Below are positions 50,221 to 60,892 of a DNA stretch of 60,892 nucleotides, in pieces (position 1 is the first letter of the stretch; each line of letters starts with the position of its first letter). The notes beneath the pieces were generated by a model. That model searched no databases. It saw only the letters and a program-made list of their open reading frames with translations, and was not told the origin of the DNA. The stretch covers positions 1 to 60,892 of the forward strand of contig JAGUYW010000009.1 in assembly GCA_020061105.1 (NCBI GenBank). Reading direction: 5' to 3'. Both the position numbers and the translations under genes were made by a program. Source of the stretch: Anaerolineales bacterium. GTDB lineage: Bacteria > Chloroflexota > Anaerolineae > Anaerolineales > UBA4823.

Positions 50221-51423
50221 CTAGATCAGGCCACGCAAGTAAGCGTGGTGTACAACCTGGTCGCGCAGTTTCGCGGCAGGCTCTTTAGTGTACAAGTCTT
50301 TGACAAATTCAACGCCAATCATCAGGCCTTTGCCGCGCACCTGGCCGATTACCGGATGGCGGGCCTGGATCTGCCGCAAAATCCCCATCATATATTCGCC
50401 CATTAAGCTGGCGTTTTGCAGATATTCTTCCTCGATCAGTTCAATCGTCGCCAGGGCAGCCGCGCAAGCCAGTGGATTGCCGCCGTAGGTATTGCCATGC
50501 GCGCCGCGCTGCCAGTTGAAAATGTGCTCACGGGCAAACATCACACCCAACGGCATGCCCGAAGCGATACCCTTGGCAGAGCAGACAATATCCGGTTCAA
50601 CGCCGAAATGTTCGATGGCCCACCATTTGCCGGTGCGCCCCATGCCCGACTGAACCTCGTCGGCAATCAGCAGGATATTATGCCGGTCGCACAATTCACG
50701 CAATGCCGGGAAGAAGCCCGGGGTCGGCACAACATAGCCTCCCTCGCCCTGGATCGGCTCTAATAAGATCCCGGCTACATTTTTCACCGGCAACAAGCGA
50801 TCCAGCACCTGTTCTTCAATGTAACGAACTACAGTCACGCCATAATCCTCGCCTGGATTCGATTGCAGAATCGGGCGGTAAGGGTCTGGGTAAGGGACAT
50901 GCACCACGCCATTCATCATCGGGTAGAAATCGCGGTGGTAAAGCGCTTTGCTGGCCGTGAAACTGACTGCTCCCATGGTACGGCCGTGAAAACCGCCAAA
51001 GAAACCGATGAACTCGGTGGCCTGCGTATAATGGCGCGCCAGCTTGATGGCAGCTTCGACGCTTTCGGCGCCCGAATTGGTCATAAATGAAATGGCGTTG
51101 TCCATGAAAGGAGCAATCTGGTTGATCTTTTCTCCCAATTCGACCCATTTGGTGTGGTAGAAATCGGAAGAAATGTGGATGAATTTTTCTGCCTGCTCCT
51201 GGATGGCTTTGACCACTCTCGGATGGCTATGTCCGGTTGAAACCACGGCAATCCCAGCAGCAAAATCCAGAAAACGGTTGCCATCCACGTCCCAAACTTC
51301 CGTTCCTTTGCCATGATCCATTACAAAGGGATAATCGCGAGGATAAGAAGGGGAAATGACATCTTGATCGCGCTTGACGATGGCCCGCGCTTTGGGGCCG
51401 GGCAAATTCATCATGACGCCCAT
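50221..51423 (-). CDS. Class III PLP aminotransferase (acetylornithine/4-aminobutyrate type), interrupted by amber codon
   Basis: 400 aa up to the TAG. NSGAESVEAAIKLAR, FHGRTMGA, ADEVQSGMGRTG (Asp255) and SAKGIASGMPLG (PLP-Lys284) show an intact active site. The frame stops at RGLI before the conserved C-terminal segment, which lies in frame beyond the stop (50062-50220). The fold without it would lack part of the C-terminal small domain. The substrate could be acetylornithine, 4-aminobutyrate or ornithine. AGGAG lies upstream of the ATG. It is the first gene of an operon with the histidine kinase and CpXC protein. Confidence 0.85.
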   Translation of the reverse strand: MGVMMNLPGPKARAIVKRDQDVISPSYPRDYPFVMDHGKGTEVWDVDGNRFLDFAAGIAVVSTGHSHPRVVKAIQEQAEKFIHISSDFYHTKWVELGEKINQIAPFMDNAISFMTNSGAESVEAAIKLARHYTQATEFIGFFGGFHGRTMGAVSFTASKALYHRDFYPMMNGVVHVPYPDPYRPILQSNPGEDYGVTVVRYIEEQVLDRLLPVKNVAGILLEPIQGEGGYVVPTPGFFPALRELCDRHNILLIADEVQSGMGRTGKWWAIEHFGVEPDIVCSAKGIASGMPLGVMFAREHIFNWQRGAHGNTYGGNPLACAAALATIELIEEEYLQNASLMGEYMMGILRQIQARHPVIGQVRGKGLMIGVEFVKDLYTKEPAAKLRDQVVHHAYLRGLI

Positions 51424-51521
51424 AAATTTTTTATTCTCCTGAACCTAGATTGAATTTGGTTTTTCTTACTCAGAGCAAGAGCAAGAATAAAACCGCCACT
51501 TTAATGTAGATGAATGCCGGA

Positions 51522-51527
51522 ATTATA
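51522..51527 (-). promoter_or_regulatory. -10 element upstream of the aminotransferase operon
   Basis: Minus strand TATAAT (51527-51522). The start would be near 51515, giving a leader of about 90 nt. No clear -35. Confidence 0.4.
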
Positions 51528-51617
51528 CCGCGCCCTGGAAGGGAATTACTAGCCCTAAAAAGCAGGAGAGGATGGAATACACGGGAAACAGGGTGACTTT
51601 TGGAACCAACACTACGG

Positions 51618-51623
51618 TATAAT
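51618..51623 (+). promoter_or_regulatory. -10 element of tgt, leaderless GTG start
   Basis: TATAAT followed by 8 nt (cggtcttt) and the GTG start codon at 51632. No Shine-Dalgarno can fit, so the transcript should begin at or next to GTG. Confidence 0.55.
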
Positions 51624-51631
51624 CGGTCTTT

Positions 51632-52768
51632 GTGGCTGCTTCTGATCATCCGCTGGCTGAACAAGGCCGTGAAAAACCCATTTTTTCTTTCGAGGTGATT
51701 GCCCAGGATGGGCGCGCTCGGGCAGGCGTTTTGCATACCCCGCATGGCGATATCCTGACACCGGTCTTCGCGCCGGTGGGCACGCAGGCGACCGTCAAAG
51801 CAATTACCCCAGCCCAGCTTGAAGAATTGGGCGCCAGCCTGGTGTTGTCGAATACATACCACCTGTACCTGCGCCCGGGCGATGAACTGGTGGCGGAAAT
51901 GGGCGGGTTGCATCGCTTCATGAACTGGCCGCGCCCAATGCTGACCGACTCCGGCGGATTTCAAGTTTTTTCTTTGGCTGAGGCGCGCAAAATCGACGAA
52001 GATGGCGTCACATTCAAAAGCCATATCGATGGCTCGCAGCACCGCCTGACCCCCGAAAAATCGATTGCTATTCAAGAAAACCTGGGCGCCGATATCATGA
52101 TGGCATTCGATGAGTGCGCCCCGCCCTACGATCGGGAATACAACCAGCGCGCCATGCAGCGCACGCATGCCTGGCTGGAGCGCTGCCTGCTCGCCAAAAC
52201 GCGCCCCGACCAGGCCCTATTTGGGATTGTGCAGGGCGGCGTCTTCCCCGACCTGCGGGCTGAATCGGCGCGCTTCGTCGCCTCGCTCGACCTGCCCGGC
52301 AACGCCATCGGCGGGCTTTCAGTGGGCGAGTCTAAAGAGGAGATGTACGCCATGCTGGACGTGGTCGAAGCGCTGCTGCCAGCCGGGAAACCGCGCTACC
52401 TGATGGGCGTCGGGGCGCCCGATGACTTGCTCAACGGGGTGTTACGCGGGATAGACATATTCGATTGTGTCCTGCCCACCCGTCTGGCGCGCCACAACGC
52501 TGCCATGACCTTGACCGGGCGCTTGAACCTGGTCAACGCCAGTTTCACCCACAATCAGCGCCCAATCGACGAGAATTGCGCCTGCTACACCTGCCGCAAC
52601 TTCAGCCGCGCCTACCTGCGCCACCTGATCAACGCCAAAGAGATGCTTTCCGCCACCCTGCTCTCGATCCACAATCTGCACACCTTGCTCGAACTGGCGC
52701 GCCAGATGCGCCAGGCCATCCTCGAAGCTCGCTTCGAGAGTTTCATGAAGACTATTTTGATGAAATAA
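51632..52768 (+). CDS. tgt: tRNA-guanine transglycosylase (queuine tRNA-ribosyltransferase)
   Basis: 378 aa. DSGGFQ (Asp106), the nucleophile in DIFDCVLPTR (Asp278) and the zinc site CACYTC (316-321) with His347 are all present. It exchanges guanine 34 for preQ1 in tRNAs with GUN anticodons. The N-terminus is about 15 residues longer than usual if GTG 51632 is used, but no better-placed start is visible. uppP starts 7 nt after its stop. Confidence 0.96.
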   Translation: MAASDHPLAEQGREKPIFSFEVIAQDGRARAGVLHTPHGDILTPVFAPVGTQATVKAITPAQLEELGASLVLSNTYHLYLRPGDELVAEMGGLHRFMNWPRPMLTDSGGFQVFSLAEARKIDEDGVTFKSHIDGSQHRLTPEKSIAIQENLGADIMMAFDECAPPYDREYNQRAMQRTHAWLERCLLAKTRPDQALFGIVQGGVFPDLRAESARFVASLDLPGNAIGGLSVGESKEEMYAMLDVVEALLPAGKPRYLMGVGAPDDLLNGVLRGIDIFDCVLPTRLARHNAAMTLTGRLNLVNASFTHNQRPIDENCACYTCRNFSRAYLRHLINAKEMLSATLLSIHNLHTLLELARQMRQAILEARFESFMKTILMK

Positions 52769-52775
52769 TAAGCCC

Positions 52776-53594
52776 ATGTCGCTACTCCAAGCCATCCTAC
52801 TCGGCATTATCCAAGGCCTGACCGAATTCCTACCCATCTCCAGTTCCGCCCACCTTGTCTTAACACCCTATTTATTGGGCTGGGAAATTCCTGCCCAAGA
52901 CGCCTTTGTATTTGATGTGCTGGTGCAGGTCGCCACCCTGGTAGGGGTGTTCGCCTATTTCTGGAAAGACTTGCTCGCCATCGCGGGCGCTTTTCTGGAC
53001 GGCATACGAAAACGCCAACCATTTGAAGAACCGCAGGCGCGCGCTGGCTGGTTCATCCTGCTAGCCAGCCTGCCAGCCGGGGTGGTTGGCCTGGCGATCA
53101 AAGACCTGGTAGAGCAAGCCTTCGCCAGCCCGGCTGCCACCGCCGGCTTTCTGCTCATTACCGCCGGGCTATTAGTGGTCGCCGAGCGGGCTGGCAAGCG
53201 CCAACGAAGCAGCGAGGAGATGAATTGGATTGACGCTCTGGTGATGGGCTGCGCCCAGGCATTGGCGGTCTTCCCCGGAATTTCGCGCTCCGGGGCGACG
53301 ATCGCTGGCGGAATGCTGCGCGACCTGAAACGCCCCGACGCGGCGCGCTTCTCTTTCATGATGTCCATCCCGATCATGCTGGCGGCGGGACTCTTGGGGG
53401 TCAAAGATTTATTGGAAATTCCACACTTCGCCGACTTGCTGCCGGTTTACCTGCCCGGCTTTATCGCCGCCGCTGTCACCGGCTACCTGGCAATTCGCTG
53501 GTTGCTAGGATTTCTGACCCGCCGGCCATTGTATGTTTTTTCGATCTACTGCGCCGCCCTGGCGCTGATCTCGCTGGCGCGGTTGGCGTTCTGA
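52776..53594 (+). CDS. uppP: Undecaprenyl-diphosphatase (BacA/UppP)
   Basis: 272 aa, about 8 membrane helices. GIIQGLTEFLPISSSAHL near the N-terminus and FPGISRSGATIAGG in the middle are the two catalytic motifs. It recycles undecaprenyl diphosphate to the monophosphate carrier used for peptidoglycan and the polysaccharides made by the glycosyltransferase clusters. No Shine-Dalgarno is visible, so translation probably relies on termination of tgt 7 nt upstream. Confidence 0.95.
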   Translation: MSLLQAILLGIIQGLTEFLPISSSAHLVLTPYLLGWEIPAQDAFVFDVLVQVATLVGVFAYFWKDLLAIAGAFLDGIRKRQPFEEPQARAGWFILLASLPAGVVGLAIKDLVEQAFASPAATAGFLLITAGLLVVAERAGKRQRSSEEMNWIDALVMGCAQALAVFPGISRSGATIAGGMLRDLKRPDAARFSFMMSIPIMLAAGLLGVKDLLEIPHFADLLPVYLPGFIAAAVTGYLAIRWLLGFLTRRPLYVFSIYCAALALISLARLAF

Positions 53595-53677: not shown

Positions 53678-53771
53678 AGTATTGGGGCGAGTGGGTATTC
53701 TCTTACGAACTTGTGTGGGGAAATTTCCTGCGCCGAAAGAAAAAAGGGTTGATCTTTTACGGAGGTGTAAA

Positions 53772-56700
53772 TTGTTCAAAGCGTCTTTTTCCCGAATTTT
53801 CTCGAAAAGTCTGGTTGGAACTGCCCAGGCCATCTTGATTACCGGCTTGCTGGTTTCCCTGGTCATGCCGGGGATTAATAACCAAGGTGTCCTTGCCGCC
53901 GGCGAACTGACCATCCAACCGATTACCTGGAATATCATCGGCCTGGACAGCAACAATGTCAATGTCGGACCGAACCATTTTCCGATTGGGGCGCGAGTGT
54001 GTAATACCACTGGCGTCGCTTTGAGTCCTGTCACGGTAACATTCAACTGGTATGATGGCCTCAATAAATACAGCGGCAATGCCTATATCAATCTACGCGG
54101 CGGCACCCTGGATGTGGTCAGCCTTTCGCTGCCTGCCAACCAGTGCGAAGACGCCTATTTCGAAGTAGCCGTCACCCGCGATCCAAACGCCTACCGCAAG
54201 ACGCGCAATTATTCCATCACCGCTCAGTACCTGAGCACCTCCGTCACAACCCCGCAACCGCGCCAGCTGTATGTCGAATACCTGATTTCGCAATCGCGTA
54301 ACTCTGTAACCGACATGCAAGTCAGCAACGATGGAGTAAGCTTTACCAGCATCCCGAACGGCGGAAGTCTGACTCTAATGGTCGGGCAGACCTACTTCAT
54401 CAAACTGGTGGGTAAGACCGCCACCAACGGTTACGAGCAAATTGAATCGTTTATCAATTTCCCCAATACAATTTTCCAAGTGCTGTCGGTCGATACGACT
54501 TATACGGCAGATACTTCCGCTACCGTAAATCCACCCTATGATCAATTATATGGCGATGGCTGTGTTTGGGAGAATAACCCCTCCAGCCCGAACTATCGCT
54601 CGTGTTTAAGCACTGGAAAATTAGGTGGAGATGTGACAGTAACCTACGAGGTCAAGATTATTTCCATGCCCTCTGCGCTGCTGGTCAACCCCGAGCCGCT
54701 CAGCACGCTGATCTACGACTTCTCTGGCGCCAGCTACCACTATAACTCCGACTTTGGCGTTTCGACGCGCTATGCCAATATTGTTAACGCCAGCATCGAA
54801 AAATCCTTCTCTCCTAAACGGATCCTACCTGGCGGAACTGCCGACCTTACTTTCACCATTCGCAATCCTGGCCCAGAGGCGATTAGCGGCGTAAGCTTCG
54901 CGGACACATTACCCTTAGGCACAAGCATTTCATCCACCGCCATCACCTATACCAACTGCGGCTCGCCATCTCCTGCTACTGGATTGTTAACCGTTGGGCA
55001 AATCGAACTCAACTTCTCGAATATCACCGTGGCCGGACTGGGCGCTTGCACAATCACCGTAAAAGTCACATCTTTGACAAACAACACCTATCTCAACACC
55101 ACCGGACCACTGTATATCGGCGATACGAACACCGGCAGCGTGGGCACAGATACATTGGTGGTTTCGTCCATGCCGGCTGCACCTTCTACGTGTGCGACAC
55201 CTGTAGAAATGGCGCGCTGGGAATTTAGCACCGCAGGATCAACAACATTTTTATCTAAAGCAACAGATGTCTCTTTCGCAAATGCGACATTTAGCGGTAC
55301 AAGTTCCGGTGTAACTGGTGGAGCTGGCGCTGCTGGCTATTGGTGGGGGCGAGGCTGGATCCAAAACAATAATCCGGCCCCACCAGCTCCAACTGCCAAT
55401 GATGCTCACTTCCAATTCGCCATTGATACGTCCAATTATGGCGGTGTTTTTATTCAGTTCTCGGCAAGAATCAACGCCAATGGAAACTGGACAGGTACCA
55501 ACAACAACTTGCGAGTCTGGCACAGTGTGGACAATGCCGCGTTTACATTGGCTGGTACAGACAACACTAACTTATCTACCACCTGGAACCCTTATTCCCG
55601 AATCCCTAATACCACTGGTGTTACAAATACTCGATTTCGAATTCAAGGTTACTATGCACACCAATCGCAAGGCGCAGATGCTGAAGTCTGGCTGGACAAC
55701 GTTGTCATCAGTGGTTGTGCACGCCCATCTCAACAGCCCACCCTTTCCAAAACCTTTTCACCCACCTCCATCCGGCAGGGTGGTTCCAGCACGCTAACCT
55801 TCACAATTACAAACCCCAATACGATCTCCCTGGGCAGCGTGGCTTTTCAGGATATCCTGCCGGAAGGGCTGGTGGTGGCCAGTCCCAACGGTTTGAGCGG
55901 ACCTACCTGTACGACCGGTTCGATTTCTGGCCAAAGCATCAGCGCGATTTCAGGCGAGAGGTTAATCAGCTTGAGCGGCGCAACCCTGACGGCTGGCGCA
56001 TCCTGTAGTTTCTCCGTCAACGTCCTCGGAGTTACAGCCGGGCAGTATACCAATGTAACCAGCCCGATCGAATCGACCGCCGGAGTAAACCTGACCGCAT
56101 CGGGATCTGGCAAAGCGAACCTGAATGTGCTCGCCCCGCCAATTATCAGCAAGAACTTCGGCGCAACCAACCTCCTCACTAATGGGACGATCAGTCTGTC
56201 CTTCACGATCAGCAATCCCAACAACTTTGCAGACTTGACAGGGGTTGCCTTTACGGATACCCTGCCAGCTGGGTTGTTGGTTGCAGACCCGAATGGCCTT
56301 ACCGGCACATGCGGCGGCGGCACGATTACAGCCATTGTTGGTTCTGGCAGCATCAGCCTGAGCGGCGCAACACTCGCGGCAAGCGCTTCCTGCACCTTCT
56401 CAGTGAATGTGACCGGGACCACGACGGGAGAAAAGGTAAATTCAGTCAAGGTGAGTTCGACCAACGGCGGCGACGGCAACACTTCCACAGCCAGCCTGCT
56501 GGTTAGAGCGCCCGTTCCAGGATTAGCGCTCTCGAAAAAAGTTGGTTCAGGCAACCTCATTGACGGGGTGTGGCTGGATTACCTGGTTGACCCGCCTGGA
56601 CCGGTTTATTATCTCTTCACGATTGAGAACACGGGCGATGTGGATTTCACATCCTTGAATATCTCAGATCCACTGTTGAATCCGGTTTCTTGCACATGGT

Positions 56701-57260
56701 ACAAATACAATCCTACCGAAAATCCTCTGTATATCTCTACGACCACCCTGCCATACGCTTCCGCCGATGGCGACCCGATCGCATACTGTATTGTAGGCCC
56801 AGTGAATACTGTAACCGGCATTACAGTTAACACGGCACAGGCCAGCGGAGTATATGGCGGCGTAACTAATTTATCGAATCCCGATTCAGCCACTTACCAG
56901 CTCGTTCCAACGGCAATTAGCCTGTCACAGTTTGAAATCACCGCCAACTTTGGCCAGATCACCCTCAACTGGGCCACCATCCTGGAAATCGACAGCCGCG
57001 GTTTTAATATCTACCGCGCCACAGACCCGGACGGACCGGCCGTGCTGGTCAACAGCGCTCTGATCGACAGCCAGACCTGGCTGGGCCAATCGATCTCGCC
57101 GCCTTATGAATACCAATACATCGATACCGATGTGCTGCCGGGTGTGGTTTATTTCTACTGGTTGGAAGAAATCAGCACCAGCGGCCAACCTACTCTATAT
57201 GGTCCTGAAAGCGTGCTCAACCCTCACTGGATTTATCTGCCAGCATTGAGAAGGCCGTAA
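53772..57260 (+). CDS. Large secreted surface protein with DUF11-like repeats and shared C-terminal module
   Basis: 1162 aa from a TTG at 53772, set by GGAGG 6 nt upstream. Signal peptide about 1-43 (hydrophobic core ILITGLLVSLVM, cleavage near VLAAG). Order: N-terminal beta domain; first DUF11-like repeat near 355 (IEKSFSPKRILPGGTADLTF); an inserted beta-sandwich-like domain at about 480-650 ending DNVVISGC, with more A+T-rich codons; two further repeats (LSKTFSPTSIRQGG, ISKNFGATNLLTNG) and a degenerate fourth (LSKKVGSGNLIDG); then a 117-residue FN3-like module (56907-57260) ending IYLPALRRP. No LPXTG or PEP-CTERM helix is present. It is probably a cell-surface or fibre protein. Confidence 0.8.
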   Translation: MFKASFSRIFSKSLVGTAQAILITGLLVSLVMPGINNQGVLAAGELTIQPITWNIIGLDSNNVNVGPNHFPIGARVCNTTGVALSPVTVTFNWYDGLNKYSGNAYINLRGGTLDVVSLSLPANQCEDAYFEVAVTRDPNAYRKTRNYSITAQYLSTSVTTPQPRQLYVEYLISQSRNSVTDMQVSNDGVSFTSIPNGGSLTLMVGQTYFIKLVGKTATNGYEQIESFINFPNTIFQVLSVDTTYTADTSATVNPPYDQLYGDGCVWENNPSSPNYRSCLSTGKLGGDVTVTYEVKIISMPSALLVNPEPLSTLIYDFSGASYHYNSDFGVSTRYANIVNASIEKSFSPKRILPGGTADLTFTIRNPGPEAISGVSFADTLPLGTSISSTAITYTNCGSPSPATGLLTVGQIELNFSNITVAGLGACTITVKVTSLTNNTYLNTTGPLYIGDTNTGSVGTDTLVVSSMPAAPSTCATPVEMARWEFSTAGSTTFLSKATDVSFANATFSGTSSGVTGGAGAAGYWWGRGWIQNNNPAPPAPTANDAHFQFAIDTSNYGGVFIQFSARINANGNWTGTNNNLRVWHSVDNAAFTLAGTDNTNLSTTWNPYSRIPNTTGVTNTRFRIQGYYAHQSQGADAEVWLDNVVISGCARPSQQPTLSKTFSPTSIRQGGSSTLTFTITNPNTISLGSVAFQDILPEGLVVASPNGLSGPTCTTGSISGQSISAISGERLISLSGATLTAGASCSFSVNVLGVTAGQYTNVTSPIESTAGVNLTASGSGKANLNVLAPPIISKNFGATNLLTNGTISLSFTISNPNNFADLTGVAFTDTLPAGLLVADPNGLTGTCGGGTITAIVGSGSISLSGATLAASASCTFSVNVTGTTTGEKVNSVKVSSTNGGDGNTSTASLLVRAPVPGLALSKKVGSGNLIDGVWLDYLVDPPGPVYYLFTIENTGDVDFTSLNISDPLLNPVSCTWYKYNPTENPLYISTTTLPYASADGDPIAYCIVGPVNTVTGITVNTAQASGVYGGVTNLSNPDSATYQLVPTAISLSQFEITANFGQITLNWATILEIDSRGFNIYRATDPDGPAVLVNSALIDSQTWLGQSISPPYEYQYIDTDVLPGVVYFYWLEEISTSGQPTLYGPESVLNPHWIYLPALRRP

Positions 57261-57283
57261 CGCCTGATTGTGTAGACTTCGAG

Positions 57284-57317
57284 ACCCGGTTTCTGATGAA
57301 ACCGGGTTTCTTTTTTC
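57284..57317 (+). terminator. Intrinsic terminator of the DUF11-repeat protein gene
   Basis: Perfect 10-bp stem ACCCGGTTTC/GAAACCGGGT (57284-57293 with 57298-57307), loop TGAT, then TTCTTTTTTC. Confidence 0.88.
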
Positions 57318-57614
57318 TATCTCCACAACAACCAGATGCGTGCAGAGCGCCTGTCACGTTAAACGAATCCTGATCAAAAGAACTGGCCCAATAATTCCAG
57401 AATTCCTGTCAAGACTTACTTTCTCCGCAAGTTGTGTCGCAGTTATTCTATTCATAAAGATTTCTTAAAACTCTTCGAACAACCCCTCACTTTTTTGCAT
57501 CTTTGGTATTATTCGCTTGATCAAATTTATTCAACCGGCGACATTGTCGATCTTTAAATACCAAATCCAATCGAATGAGAGCCGGAAAAAGTTCTTGTAT
57601 GATTATTGAGTATC
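57318..57614. other. Intergenic leader and promoter region between the two surface-protein genes
   Basis: Apart from the terminator before it and the extended -10 at 57504-57512, I see no gene, repeat or riboswitch here. It is A+T rich. A short CGAC/GTCG hairpin lies near 57539-57551 in the leader of the downstream gene. Confidence 0.6.
57504..57512 (+). promoter_or_regulatory. Extended -10 promoter of the GEVED-domain surface protein gene
   Basis: TG-G-TATTAT (57504-57512). The predicted start near 57519 gives a leader of about 95 nt, similar in length to that of the upstream surface-protein gene. Confidence 0.5.
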
Positions 57615-59714
57615 ATGAAAAAAAATTCTTACACCCTATTTTCAAGCAAAGGAACCGTTATCGTCGCGCAAATCACCCTGATCATCATTCTTCTGTTTGC
57701 GCAATTCAGTTCATCAGCGCCCACCCAGGCCAATTCGAACGCCCCGACTGTCAATGGGTTGTATTACGGCGATGGCGATTTCCAAAGATATATCCTTTAC
57801 AATACCTCCAATTACGGCAGCGGGTTGTATTATTATCTGGACAACTGGACGCTGTATGTTTCGCTGGTGGTTAATCGCAACGTAAATGATAATGTCTTTG
57901 GGAATCGTTCCTACACGCAAAGCGCAGGATGGGGTCCACCTCGTCTCGCCAACCGCTTGATTGACTCAGAGTACGCGGCTTTCAGCTTATCGTGCGGCCC
58001 AAACACCTGGCTCTGGCGGCAGGGCTACGCCGGGCAACTGGATAATCCTAAAAACACCACCTATCCGACCTGGTTTTCGAATCATACCGTATCAGGCGGC
58101 GGTGGAACCCCCCCTCCAGGGACGGCTTCAAGCAGCTCTTTTGTCTGGAATTTAAATAATTACGCGTCCAACCCCAATCCAGCCTGGAACATGACGGTCA
58201 ACGGAACCAACATCGGCGACTGGAAATCGCCCTTCTCAGCCGCCGCTCCGAACCAGGTCATCGGGTTGGACGGCTACCCGGCAACCGGCGCGATTGTCTA
58301 CAGCTCCGTCTACCAATGGGAATGGCCGATGGTATATGAATGGTCGGTGGACCTGGCAGCCATTTGCGGTCAGAATCCGCTGTTTGTTTTCTCAGGCTCA
58401 TCCCACCATTCCCCAGCAAAAAATGGCGTCGATAATGACAATTTCCCCGAGCCAGAACCAGGCGATGACGGCGATCCTACTTTTTTGTTGACCGATTTTG
58501 GCGACCTGCCAGCTGTTTATAAGACGATGCTAGAAGACAACGGCGCCCGTCACACCATTGTTGTCAACAGCGCATTTTTAGGCTTACAAGCGCCTGACGC
58601 CGAGAGCTTCGCCCAACCCAGCACCAACGCCAAAGGAGACGACATCCTGGGGAGCAACGACGAAGACGGGGTGGTTTTCTTTTCGCCCTTCATGCCCGGT
58701 CACCAGGCGCTGATCCAGGTCACTGCCGGCGCGCCGGGTTACCTGAGCGCTTTCATCGATTTTAACAACGACCTCACCCTGGACCCGGTAACGCTCATCT
58801 CCGCCTCCGGACCGGCGCCGGTAACTGCTGGGATTATTGGCGATACCTATCTGGCAGCTGCCGGCGTTTACACCCTGCGCATCAGCGTTCCCGCGAACGC
58901 CAAAGGATTGATGTATTCTCGGTTTCGGATTACAAATTCCGCCGGACAGGGCGGCAACAGTCCTTTTGGATTGGCGTCGAGCGGCGAAGTGGAAGATTAC
59001 ACCCTTTCCACCATCAAAGGGTTGGTCTGGAATGATTTCAATCGCGACGGCTATAAAGACTTCAACGAAGAAATACTGCCATTTATGCCAGTAAAACTGC
59101 TGAAAGACAATGGCGTTCCCGTTGTAGACGCCTCCGGCGCGCCCATTGTAAAGTCTACTGACGAAAACGGCGCTTATGAATTCCCTGGGACGCCCCCTGG
59201 AAGCTACAGGCTGGAATTCGTCGCCCTGGAAGGTTACCAAATATCGCCAAAGGTGCCAGGGGGCGATAATATCGCCGACCCGCTGTCCGGCAGGACCACA
59301 GTTGTCTCACCAGCCCCAGGCGTGGCAGTCACCGGGCTGAACGCTGGTTTGTACGAAGTTCCGACGGCAATCTCCCTGGCCAGCATAGAAATATGCGCTG
59401 CTTTCGACCAGGTAACCCTCAGTTGGAGCACCCTCCTGGAAATCGACAGCCTGGGTTTCAACATCTACCGGTCAACAGATCCAGATGAGCCAGGGGTGAT
59501 GATCAATTCCGATCTCATTCCCAGCCAATCCTGGCTTGGAGTAGCGATATCGCCGCCCTTTTCCTATCACTTCACCGACCCAAATATCGAACCCGGTATG
59601 ACCTATTTTTACTGGCTGGAAGAAGTCAGCACAGATGGGAGATCCACCCTCTACGGCCCCGAGCAAGTTCTCAACAACTACCGCATCTTCCTGCCCACCC
59701 TGCGGCGACCGTAA
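57615..59714 (+). CDS. Secreted surface protein with GEVED and SdrB-like domains and shared C-terminal module
   Basis: 699 aa from the ATG at 57615; a TTG three codons upstream is possible and the Shine-Dalgarno is poor. Signal peptide about 1-40 (VAQITLIIILLFAQF core). An N-terminal region of about 230 residues has many aromatic/Gly residues and no family I know. Then comes a GEVED domain (about 290-475: DFGDLPAVYKT, ADGARH-like DNGARHTI, DEDGV, SGEVEDYTL), an SdrB-like Cna_B fold (about 478-580: KGLVWNDFNRDGYKD), and a 117-residue FN3-like module (59361-59714) ending IFLPTLRRP. The last module matches the upstream surface protein at 75 of 117 positions without gaps. Confidence 0.8.
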   Translation: MKKNSYTLFSSKGTVIVAQITLIIILLFAQFSSSAPTQANSNAPTVNGLYYGDGDFQRYILYNTSNYGSGLYYYLDNWTLYVSLVVNRNVNDNVFGNRSYTQSAGWGPPRLANRLIDSEYAAFSLSCGPNTWLWRQGYAGQLDNPKNTTYPTWFSNHTVSGGGGTPPPGTASSSSFVWNLNNYASNPNPAWNMTVNGTNIGDWKSPFSAAAPNQVIGLDGYPATGAIVYSSVYQWEWPMVYEWSVDLAAICGQNPLFVFSGSSHHSPAKNGVDNDNFPEPEPGDDGDPTFLLTDFGDLPAVYKTMLEDNGARHTIVVNSAFLGLQAPDAESFAQPSTNAKGDDILGSNDEDGVVFFSPFMPGHQALIQVTAGAPGYLSAFIDFNNDLTLDPVTLISASGPAPVTAGIIGDTYLAAAGVYTLRISVPANAKGLMYSRFRITNSAGQGGNSPFGLASSGEVEDYTLSTIKGLVWNDFNRDGYKDFNEEILPFMPVKLLKDNGVPVVDASGAPIVKSTDENGAYEFPGTPPGSYRLEFVALEGYQISPKVPGGDNIADPLSGRTTVVSPAPGVAVTGLNAGLYEVPTAISLASIEICAAFDQVTLSWSTLLEIDSLGFNIYRSTDPDEPGVMINSDLIPSQSWLGVAISPPFSYHFTDPNIEPGMTYFYWLEEVSTDGRSTLYGPEQVLNNYRIFLPTLRRP

Positions 59715-59732
59715 CAATTGCCCTTCATATGA

Positions 59733-59765
59733 AAAACCGGCTTCTCTCCGAAGCCGGTTTTTTTT
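59733..59765. terminator. Bidirectional intrinsic terminator between the surface protein and FIST genes
   Basis: Perfect 12-bp stem AAAACCGGCTTC/GAAGCCGGTTTT (59733-59744 with 59750-59761), 5-nt loop, T-run on the plus side and A-run on the left that serves the minus strand. Confidence 0.88.
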
Positions 59766-60892
59766 ATGCTTTACCAGCGAATAACACTACCACAATATGT
59801 TGGTTTAAAAATTCAAAAGGATCGTTGGAAGAGCGGCGCACCAGTTGTCCCAGGGTGTAGCCGCCAAAAATGGGCGTTTGCGCGCCGATGACGTCTCGCA
59901 CGGCTTCAATTTCTCCCTGCGGCTGCAGTTCGAGCATCACTTGCCAGGCGACATCGACCAGCAGCAAGGCAGCCACCGGTTGGGCGTCTCCCAACATGGC
60001 TTTGGCCTGCCCGGCAGCCTGACGAGCGGCCTGCTGGCAGCCATCGATCGTTCCGATCATCAAGTCGACCAGCGCGCCTTCTGCCAGCCGGCTGTTCATG
60101 CGCAAACTGCCATCTGCCTCCATGCGCAAGGGAGAACGAATCTGCAACGCCTGACCGGGCTGGCCATGAACTCCCAGCGGATACTGGCGCACGAGATCGT
60201 TCAAAGGCGGGAAAGACCAATCGCGGGCCGGGAAACCAAACCAGCGAGCGTAGATATGGCTGGCGGGTTCATCGTCCAGCATGCGCACCCACTGCCCCTG
60301 GACACGCGTCAAACGCGCCAGCGCCCCCACCGGCCGCCATCCATGCGCCGCGCCCACGCCTATAGCGATCTCGCCGCTCAACAGCATACCCGCCAACCCA
60401 CCGCTGCCGGACTGACGCCCGCCGATCTGGTAAGTGCGGCCGCGGTTGACCTCACCGCCAGCCAGGCAGCCTGCTACCACGAAGTTCCCCGCCGCCAGGT
60501 ACTCACCAAGCAAGCTGGCGTCGCCGTTCAAACCATCCGCCGCCAGCAATAATACTGACGATGATTCGGCTGGGGGGTTTAAGACATGCAGCATGTTTTG
60601 GATGGCGCTGCGGCTATCCTGGTTAAAATCAGGCCACCAACCGGCGCGGCCTTGCACGCCTTCCCCGGCAAACAAAGCCGCCACAACCGAGCGCCGGCTG
60701 CGCCCTGCAGGACTGAGTTCTGCGGAAGTCGAGAATCCGAGCAGTGGAAGATCGCCCAGGGTTTCCAGCGCCCCGCCTAACACTTCTTGAATTGGATAGG
60801 CGTAGGAAGAAATCAGCCACCCAAAAGCCGGGCGGGCGGTTTTTCCCAGGCCTTCCATGGCCTGCTGGACGGATTCTACACCGGCCTGGTGG
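59764..60892 (-). CDS. FIST-domain protein, 5' end beyond the right edge
   Basis: The frame is open to the right edge. An ATG at 60858 would give 364 aa, but the in-frame codons upstream (HQAGVESVQQA) are protein-like and FIST_N domains normally begin about 30-60 residues earlier, so the real start lies outside. FIST_N: LPLLGFSTSAELSPAG, SVVAALFAG, LLLAADGLNGD, VVAGCLAGG. FIST_C: RWFGFPARDWSFPPLND, YPLGVHG, LRMEADGSLRM, then PIFGGYTLGQL near the end. FIST proteins are ligand sensors often coupled to signalling enzymes; the ligand is unknown. Confidence 0.8.
   Translation of the reverse strand, partial: HQAGVESVQQAMEGLGKTARPAFGWLISSYAYPIQEVLGGALETLGDLPLLGFSTSAELSPAGRSRRSVVAALFAGEGVQGRAGWWPDFNQDSRSAIQNMLHVLNPPAESSSVLLLAADGLNGDASLLGEYLAAGNFVVAGCLAGGEVNRGRTYQIGGRQSGSGGLAGMLLSGEIAIGVGAAHGWRPVGALARLTRVQGQWVRMLDDEPASHIYARWFGFPARDWSFPPLNDLVRQYPLGVHGQPGQALQIRSPLRMEADGSLRMNSRLAEGALVDLMIGTIDGCQQAARQAAGQAKAMLGDAQPVAALLLVDVAWQVMLELQPQGEIEAVRDVIGAQTPIFGGYTLGQLVRRSSNDPFEFLNQHIVVVLFAGKA

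Follow-up and report, generated by a model that had tools for sequence, protein, structure and literature searches.

The C-terminal domains of substrates of the type IX secretion system (T9SS) of Bacteroidota are folded and approximately 70-100 residues long. Such a domain serves outer-membrane translocation (PMC8545088). LPXTG, PEP-CTERM, GlyGly-CTERM and MYXO-CTERM signals are tripartite, combining a motif, a membrane helix and a basic cluster (PMC11980579, PMC1569441). Here we describe a short C-terminal tail shared by two proteins, ORF A and ORF B (ORF, open reading frame), encoded on a stretch of 60,892 nucleotides (the window) from an Anaerolineales bacterium of the Chloroflexota (contig JAGUYW010000009.1). 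The last ~9 residues are probably a tag that holds exported Chloroflexota proteins at the cell surface through a putative partner.

The C-termini of ORF A and ORF B are identical at 76 of 118 residues (64%) in a gap-free alignment (BLASTP, E = 3e-47), and BLASTP finds no further significant similarity between the two proteins outside this 118-residue cassette. Their N-terminal parts are unrelated (DUF11/DUF7933 in ORF A, GEVED/SdrD_B in ORF B), and neither protein has a membrane helix at its C-terminus. At the DNA level the cassettes are 65.5% identical, third codon positions differ at 60 of 118 sites, codons coincide for only 35 of the 76 identical residues, and the DNA on either side is unrelated (ungapped identity 19% upstream, 27% downstream). 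Because of this divergence and the unrelated flanks, the cassette is, judged from its sequence, an old shared unit and not a recent tandem copy. It is present four times in the genome to which the window belongs (G000; 1.95 Mb, 54% complete).

An AlphaFold2 model built from ten related cassettes (alignment A2) predicts a beta-sandwich over cassette residues 5-105 (mean pLDDT 86.6), with six strands of at least three residues each (5-15, 18-28, 31-39, 68-74, 82-91, 96-105), and a coil for the last 13 residues. The best Foldseek matches of the domain are FN3 domains (Ihog, titin and an FN3-like protein of Clostridium thermocellum); model strands and fold matches thus both correspond to an FN3 beta-sandwich. 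The ~105 residues before the tail resemble fibronectin type III in fold, but no Pfam or NCBIfam model matches the cassette or recognizes this subfamily. As modeled, the cassette is an FN3 domain (~105 amino acids) and, separate from it, an unfolded tail of ~9 residues. The domain is optional for tagging, and most tagged proteins lack it. The first-pass annotation had described an FN3-like module shared by otherwise unrelated secreted proteins, with no C-terminal helix, LPXTG or PEP motif, and on each of these points the alignment, the model and the tails agree with it. Its proposal that the whole 117-residue module is the signal is not supported, since ~105 of those residues form a domain missing from most tagged proteins, leaving the last ~9 as the predicted signal.

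The consensus of the tag is (R)-[VI]-[YF]-L-P-L-[VI]-x-R-stop. The LP-x-LRRP ending of the window proteins is a local spelling of [YF]LPL[VI]xR, and their tails, IYLPALRRP and IFLPTLRRP, deviate slightly from the wider consensus. A first, loose pattern was noisy and close to its control in many genomes, and our claims rest on stricter patterns. Across eight genomes, the stricter pattern gave 90 matches versus 11 for its reversed form; the positions before the motif, which the pattern leaves free, are also biased (V/I/L in 35 of 46, R/K in 19 of 46). For a test of conservation, 12 tagged proteins stripped of their last 12 residues were used as queries against 20 other genomes of the same family. 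The core, [LIVMF]P followed by two hydrophobic residues, lies within the last 12 residues of 60 of the 63 homologues (37-61% identical), compared with 20 of 509 untagged genes and 1.6% of internal 12-mers from the same proteins. Spacer length in front of the tag ranges from 5 to more than 100 residues (poly-E, DNG repeats, PTS-rich). Since the core is kept across such spacers, we infer that selection acts on the tag and leaves the linker free to drift. In three proteins (L243, L259, L265) the tag is doubled or also present internally, e.g., IHLPIITK...VYLPTITN and AIFLPMLRV...VYLPLTLR; in one of them, KLYLPLSE is followed by ~100 more residues and a final tag.

The tag terminates a wide variety of exported proteins. 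Within the genome of the window, the codon pattern [FY]-[LF]-P-hydrophobic-hydrophobic-x-[RS] plus stop has five matches with an in-frame stop, all of which end large, exported-looking proteins of unrelated kinds; the FN3 domain is missing from three of them (Table 1). By a simple test, 37 of 43 tagged ORFs (40 loci in three genomes) have an N-terminal signal, and a home-made signal-peptide test (not SignalP) was passed by 42 of 46 tagged ORFs versus about a quarter of 496 untagged ones. The same 46 proteins include no multi-span membrane proteins and a single lipobox-like match. Pfam families among the carriers are amidase_2, M23, clostripain, trypsin, GDSL lipase, beta-helices and beta-propellers, and further architectures contain DUF11 and SdrD_B repeats. 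One carrier (L175) has a signal resembling those of the twin-arginine translocation (Tat) route; the tag therefore seems to function once the protein has been exported, whether by the Tat or by the general secretory (Sec) route. Three open frames of 5187-5995 amino acids (L277, L278, L279) represent giant surface proteins with SdrD_B repeats and have the FN3 domain plus a variant of the tag (RVLVPIIQR, TVMLPLIVR) at their C-termini.

Among 201 Chloroflexota genomes, the tail is frequent in families f21, f31, f57, f20, f3 and f5, and absent or at background level in others (e.g., f19, f27, f29). YLPLVxR plus stop was sought in 84,980 species and turned up in 98 stretches; 71 of the 80 listed bear Chloroflexota names (Chloroploca, Viridilinea, Oscillochloris, Roseiflexus, Herpetosiphonaceae, Caldilineaceae, Ardenticatenaceae, Anaerolineales, Thermoflexales and others). 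The remaining nine are either chance-like (a Marinobacter gene, present twice, that lacks a signal peptide; two short ORFs), fragmentary or unassigned, or apparently misbinned contigs. The match in an ‘Elioraea’ metagenome-assembled genome (L136) resembles the end of a Roseiflexus protein (L136, L158) and looks like a misplaced Chloroflexota contig. Genome G061 and Chloroflexales bacterium ZM16-3 (L104) have a 134,699-base contig and a tagged protein in common. On the evidence of these matches, the tag is nearly restricted to some Chloroflexota lineages. A tagged protein end in a Scytonema assembly (L107) also lies on what appears to be a misplaced Chloroflexota contig.

These distributions bear on what the first-pass annotation had predicted more broadly. 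The tail is indeed kept while the rest differs, on many signal-peptide proteins with diverse N-termini and over much of the phylum; a surface-targeting system of the phylum as a whole is too wide a claim, with several families lacking the tail. That annotation had also counted against itself a tail missing from other proteins or explained by local tandem duplication alone; the tail ends many other exported proteins, and recent local tandem duplication was rejected as an explanation because it fails to account for them. The co-occurring processing or export enzyme that it expected was looked for and not found, with sortase and exosortase ruled out as general partners.

With the FN3 domain alone as query (A3, tail removed), matches were obtained in 29 of the 201 genomes. 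Of the proteins found in this way, 69 were followed towards their ends: 52 terminate with the tag or with a P-anchored variant of it (e.g., RVLVPIIQR, RIFAPMTTR, TIYGPAVMR), 8 with a membrane helix, mostly after a PT-rich linker, and 6 with neither, while 3 run off the stretch; no protein of the 69 combines the tag with a C-terminal membrane helix. Ten script calls were re-sorted by eye, two to helix (L289, L330) and eight from ‘other’ to variant tags (L297, L301, L302, L305, L306, L307, L308, L331). In six proteins, mostly of the beta-helix type, the tag directly follows a choice-of-anchor Q domain (NCBIfam NF041518), which here precedes the tag where other sorting signals sit, but is itself a domain before the anchor and not the anchor. 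One protein (L053) scores above the cut-off for ScyF, a PEP-CTERM protein of cyanobacteria, yet bears the tag instead. Helix exclusion, the choice-of-anchor Q context and L053 together place the tag at the anchor position. The motif, the diversity of its carriers, its conservation, its exclusion of other anchors and its narrow distribution are all shown by sequence. Two proteins from the genus of G168 (L285, L286) have the same FN3 domain but end in ...SARALKKIK, possibly another C-terminal signal.

The sorting enzymes searched for do not follow the tag. Sortase (PF04203) is common in the phylum and widespread in families without the tag; it is absent from 13 of the 16 genomes of G168's genus, several of them at least 95% complete. 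As it is missing from the tag-bearing G168 (97% complete, 9 contigs) and G200 (97%), it was rejected as a general partner. Exosortase (PF09721) exceeds its cut-off in just 3 of 44 genomes, one of them tag-rich (G011), and was rejected because it is nearly absent. CPBP proteins, the family to which myxosortase belongs, occur in all 44 genomes and do not discriminate tag bearers. Omp85 was found in none of 26 genomes (7 of 14 controls positive), in agreement with the reported lack of BAM genes in Chloroflexota (PMC13319060), and an outer-membrane route was rejected on this basis. Chloroflexota are reported to lack BAM and outer-membrane genes, yet some have diderm-like, multilayered envelopes (PMC13319060).

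Surface retention is favored because the tag alternates with a membrane anchor and follows a choice-of-anchor domain, and the combined evidence supports retention by a putative dedicated partner. Proteins would be exported via Sec, and at least once apparently via Tat; the unfolded tag, ending a domain or a variable linker, would be recognized outside the cytoplasmic membrane by a conserved candidate component of the wall or outer layer, and would thereby substitute for a membrane helix or lipid anchor in retaining the protein at the cell surface. The preceding FN3 domain may be an optional spacer or display domain. Several points weigh against this proposal. The tail lacks a membrane helix, unlike sortase-type signals, and the mechanism therefore has no close precedent. 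A few homologues carry 2-20 extra residues past the core (QGS, QGSEDP, ...PYPIP), so the exact C-terminal end is not always required. Moreover, the search for a partner came up empty. The occurrence of sortase, exosortase and CPBP does not parallel that of the tag, and clustering of 696 ORFs in the neighborhoods of tagged genes gave no dedicated partner gene beside them, the neighbors belonging to common families only (kinase/response-regulator, ABC-transporter and glycosyltransferase types). We suggest more tentatively, as a possibility that falls a little short of even, that a helix-free tag with putative non-sortase, non-exosortase machinery, in many Chloroflexia and Anaerolineae, places exoproteins on the outer layer of multilayered envelopes and represents a new mechanistic type.

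The tail could instead be a release or translocation signal that guides proteins through the outer layers, after which they are freed. Hydrolases of the secreted type (trypsin, clostripain, GDSL, subtilase-like) are numerous among the carriers, and a crossing step is conceivable since some envelopes of the phylum are multilayered (PMC13319060); we nevertheless consider this unlikely, as alternation with a membrane anchor in the same FN3 proteins and a position after a choice-of-anchor domain argue for retention, and Omp85 is lacking from the 26 genomes. Somewhat less likely still is direct binding to the membrane surface, with no dedicated partner, by a short hydrophobic tail that is amphipathic and has basic ends. 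Six hydrophobic residues do lie between basic ones and other membrane anchors are excluded, but it is the order of residues that is kept and not composition alone (P is nearly invariant, with L before it, an aromatic residue before the L and R at a fixed distance), and membranes are found in nearly all bacteria, whereas the tail hardly occurs outside certain Chloroflexota lineages. If the tail were an abbreviated LPXTG-like signal, with sortase as its processing enzyme, this would account for the LP core and the basic end, in a phylum where sortase genes are common. Such a signal is very improbable given the missing helix and the distribution of PF04203 (lacking in most of a genus that includes G168 and G200, common in tag-free families), and is already contradicted as a general mechanism. 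The window pair shares domain and tail, and the tail often follows the domain, so shared descent of the FN3 domain, the tail being a part of it with no role of its own, might also be considered. This has a negligible chance of being correct: most tagged proteins lack such a domain, which already refutes it, the tail is modeled as coil outside the fold, and some proteins combine the domain with a membrane helix and lack the tail.

Surface retention by the tag, if correct, would matter for the biology of the phylum, in which envelope composition and the fixation of proteins are open questions. The tag marks up to dozens of exoproteins per genome and would provide a list of surface proteins, a handle for isolating the receptor or enzyme, and a means of directing proteins to the cell exterior. 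C-terminal sorting signals would, in addition, gain a class without a helix. Features of the window and the tagged proteins of its genome are given in Table 1.

Table 1. Features of the window, and tagged proteins found elsewhere in the same genome by the codon pattern
Feature	Position	Strand	Tail	Remarks
ORF A	53682..57260	+		1192 amino acids as listed; TTG start, true start possibly further in; hydrophobic signal stretch (~residues 45-64), DUF11 + DUF7933 repeats, FN3 domain, tail
FN3-like domain of ORF A	56904..57218	+		Cassette residues 1-105; AlphaFold model, Foldseek
C-terminal tag of ORF A	57231..57257	+	IYLPALRRP	Outside the folded domain
ORF B	57606..59714	+		702 amino acids; N-terminal signal stretch, GEVED, SdrD_B, FN3 domain, tail
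FN3-like domain of ORF B	59358..59672	+		Sequence comparison
C-terminal tag of ORF B	59685..59711	+	IFLPTLRRP	
Terminator-like hairpin + T run after ORF A	57283-57317			GAAACCGGGTTTC
Terminator-like hairpin + T run after ORF B	59732-59766			GAAGCCGG; similar to that after ORF A
Ordinary neighbors	50221-53594 and 59764-60858			Class-III aminotransferase, queuine tRNA-ribosyltransferase, BacA (undecaprenyl-diphosphatase), FIST-domain protein
Carrier 1: CSLREA beta-helix protein			IYLPLILR	Label backed by Pfam + NCBIfam
Carrier 2: 2408-amino-acid repeat protein, SdrD_B-like			YLPLINR	Label from reading the sequence
Carrier 3: sugar-dehydrogenase-like/DUF11-like/cytochrome-like protein			FLPVVQR	Label from reading the sequence
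Carrier 4: C25-like peptidase			YLPMLQRK	Label from reading the sequence
Carrier 5: subtilase-like protein			FLPLLFRN	Label from reading the sequence

No earlier description of the tag was found in the open-licence literature searched or in Pfam/NCBIfam. Compared with LPXTG/sortase signals, the motif occupies the last ~9 residues and no helix accompanies it, and sortase is missing from two signal-bearing genomes (G168, G200). The tails have no PEP motif or helix, with exosortase in 3 of 44 genomes, unlike the PEP-CTERM system; they have no Gly-rich motif or helix, unlike GlyGly-CTERM (rhombosortase itself was not searched for), and no cysteine or helix, unlike MYXO-CTERM. T9SS C-terminal domains share with the tag a helix-free C-terminal signal, a beta-sandwich near the end and carriers that include C25-like and other peptidases, but the tag is nine unfolded residues in genomes without Omp85 (0 of 26; T9SS genes themselves were not searched for). 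The tag differs from sortase, exosortase, rhombosortase and myxosortase signals in being helix-free, ~9 residues in all, and not tracked by the enzymes tested. It resembles them in being a short C-terminal signal with basic terminal residues, positioned after choice-of-anchor domains and carried by dozens of unrelated signal-peptide proteins per genome, i.e., in the same many-to-one logic.

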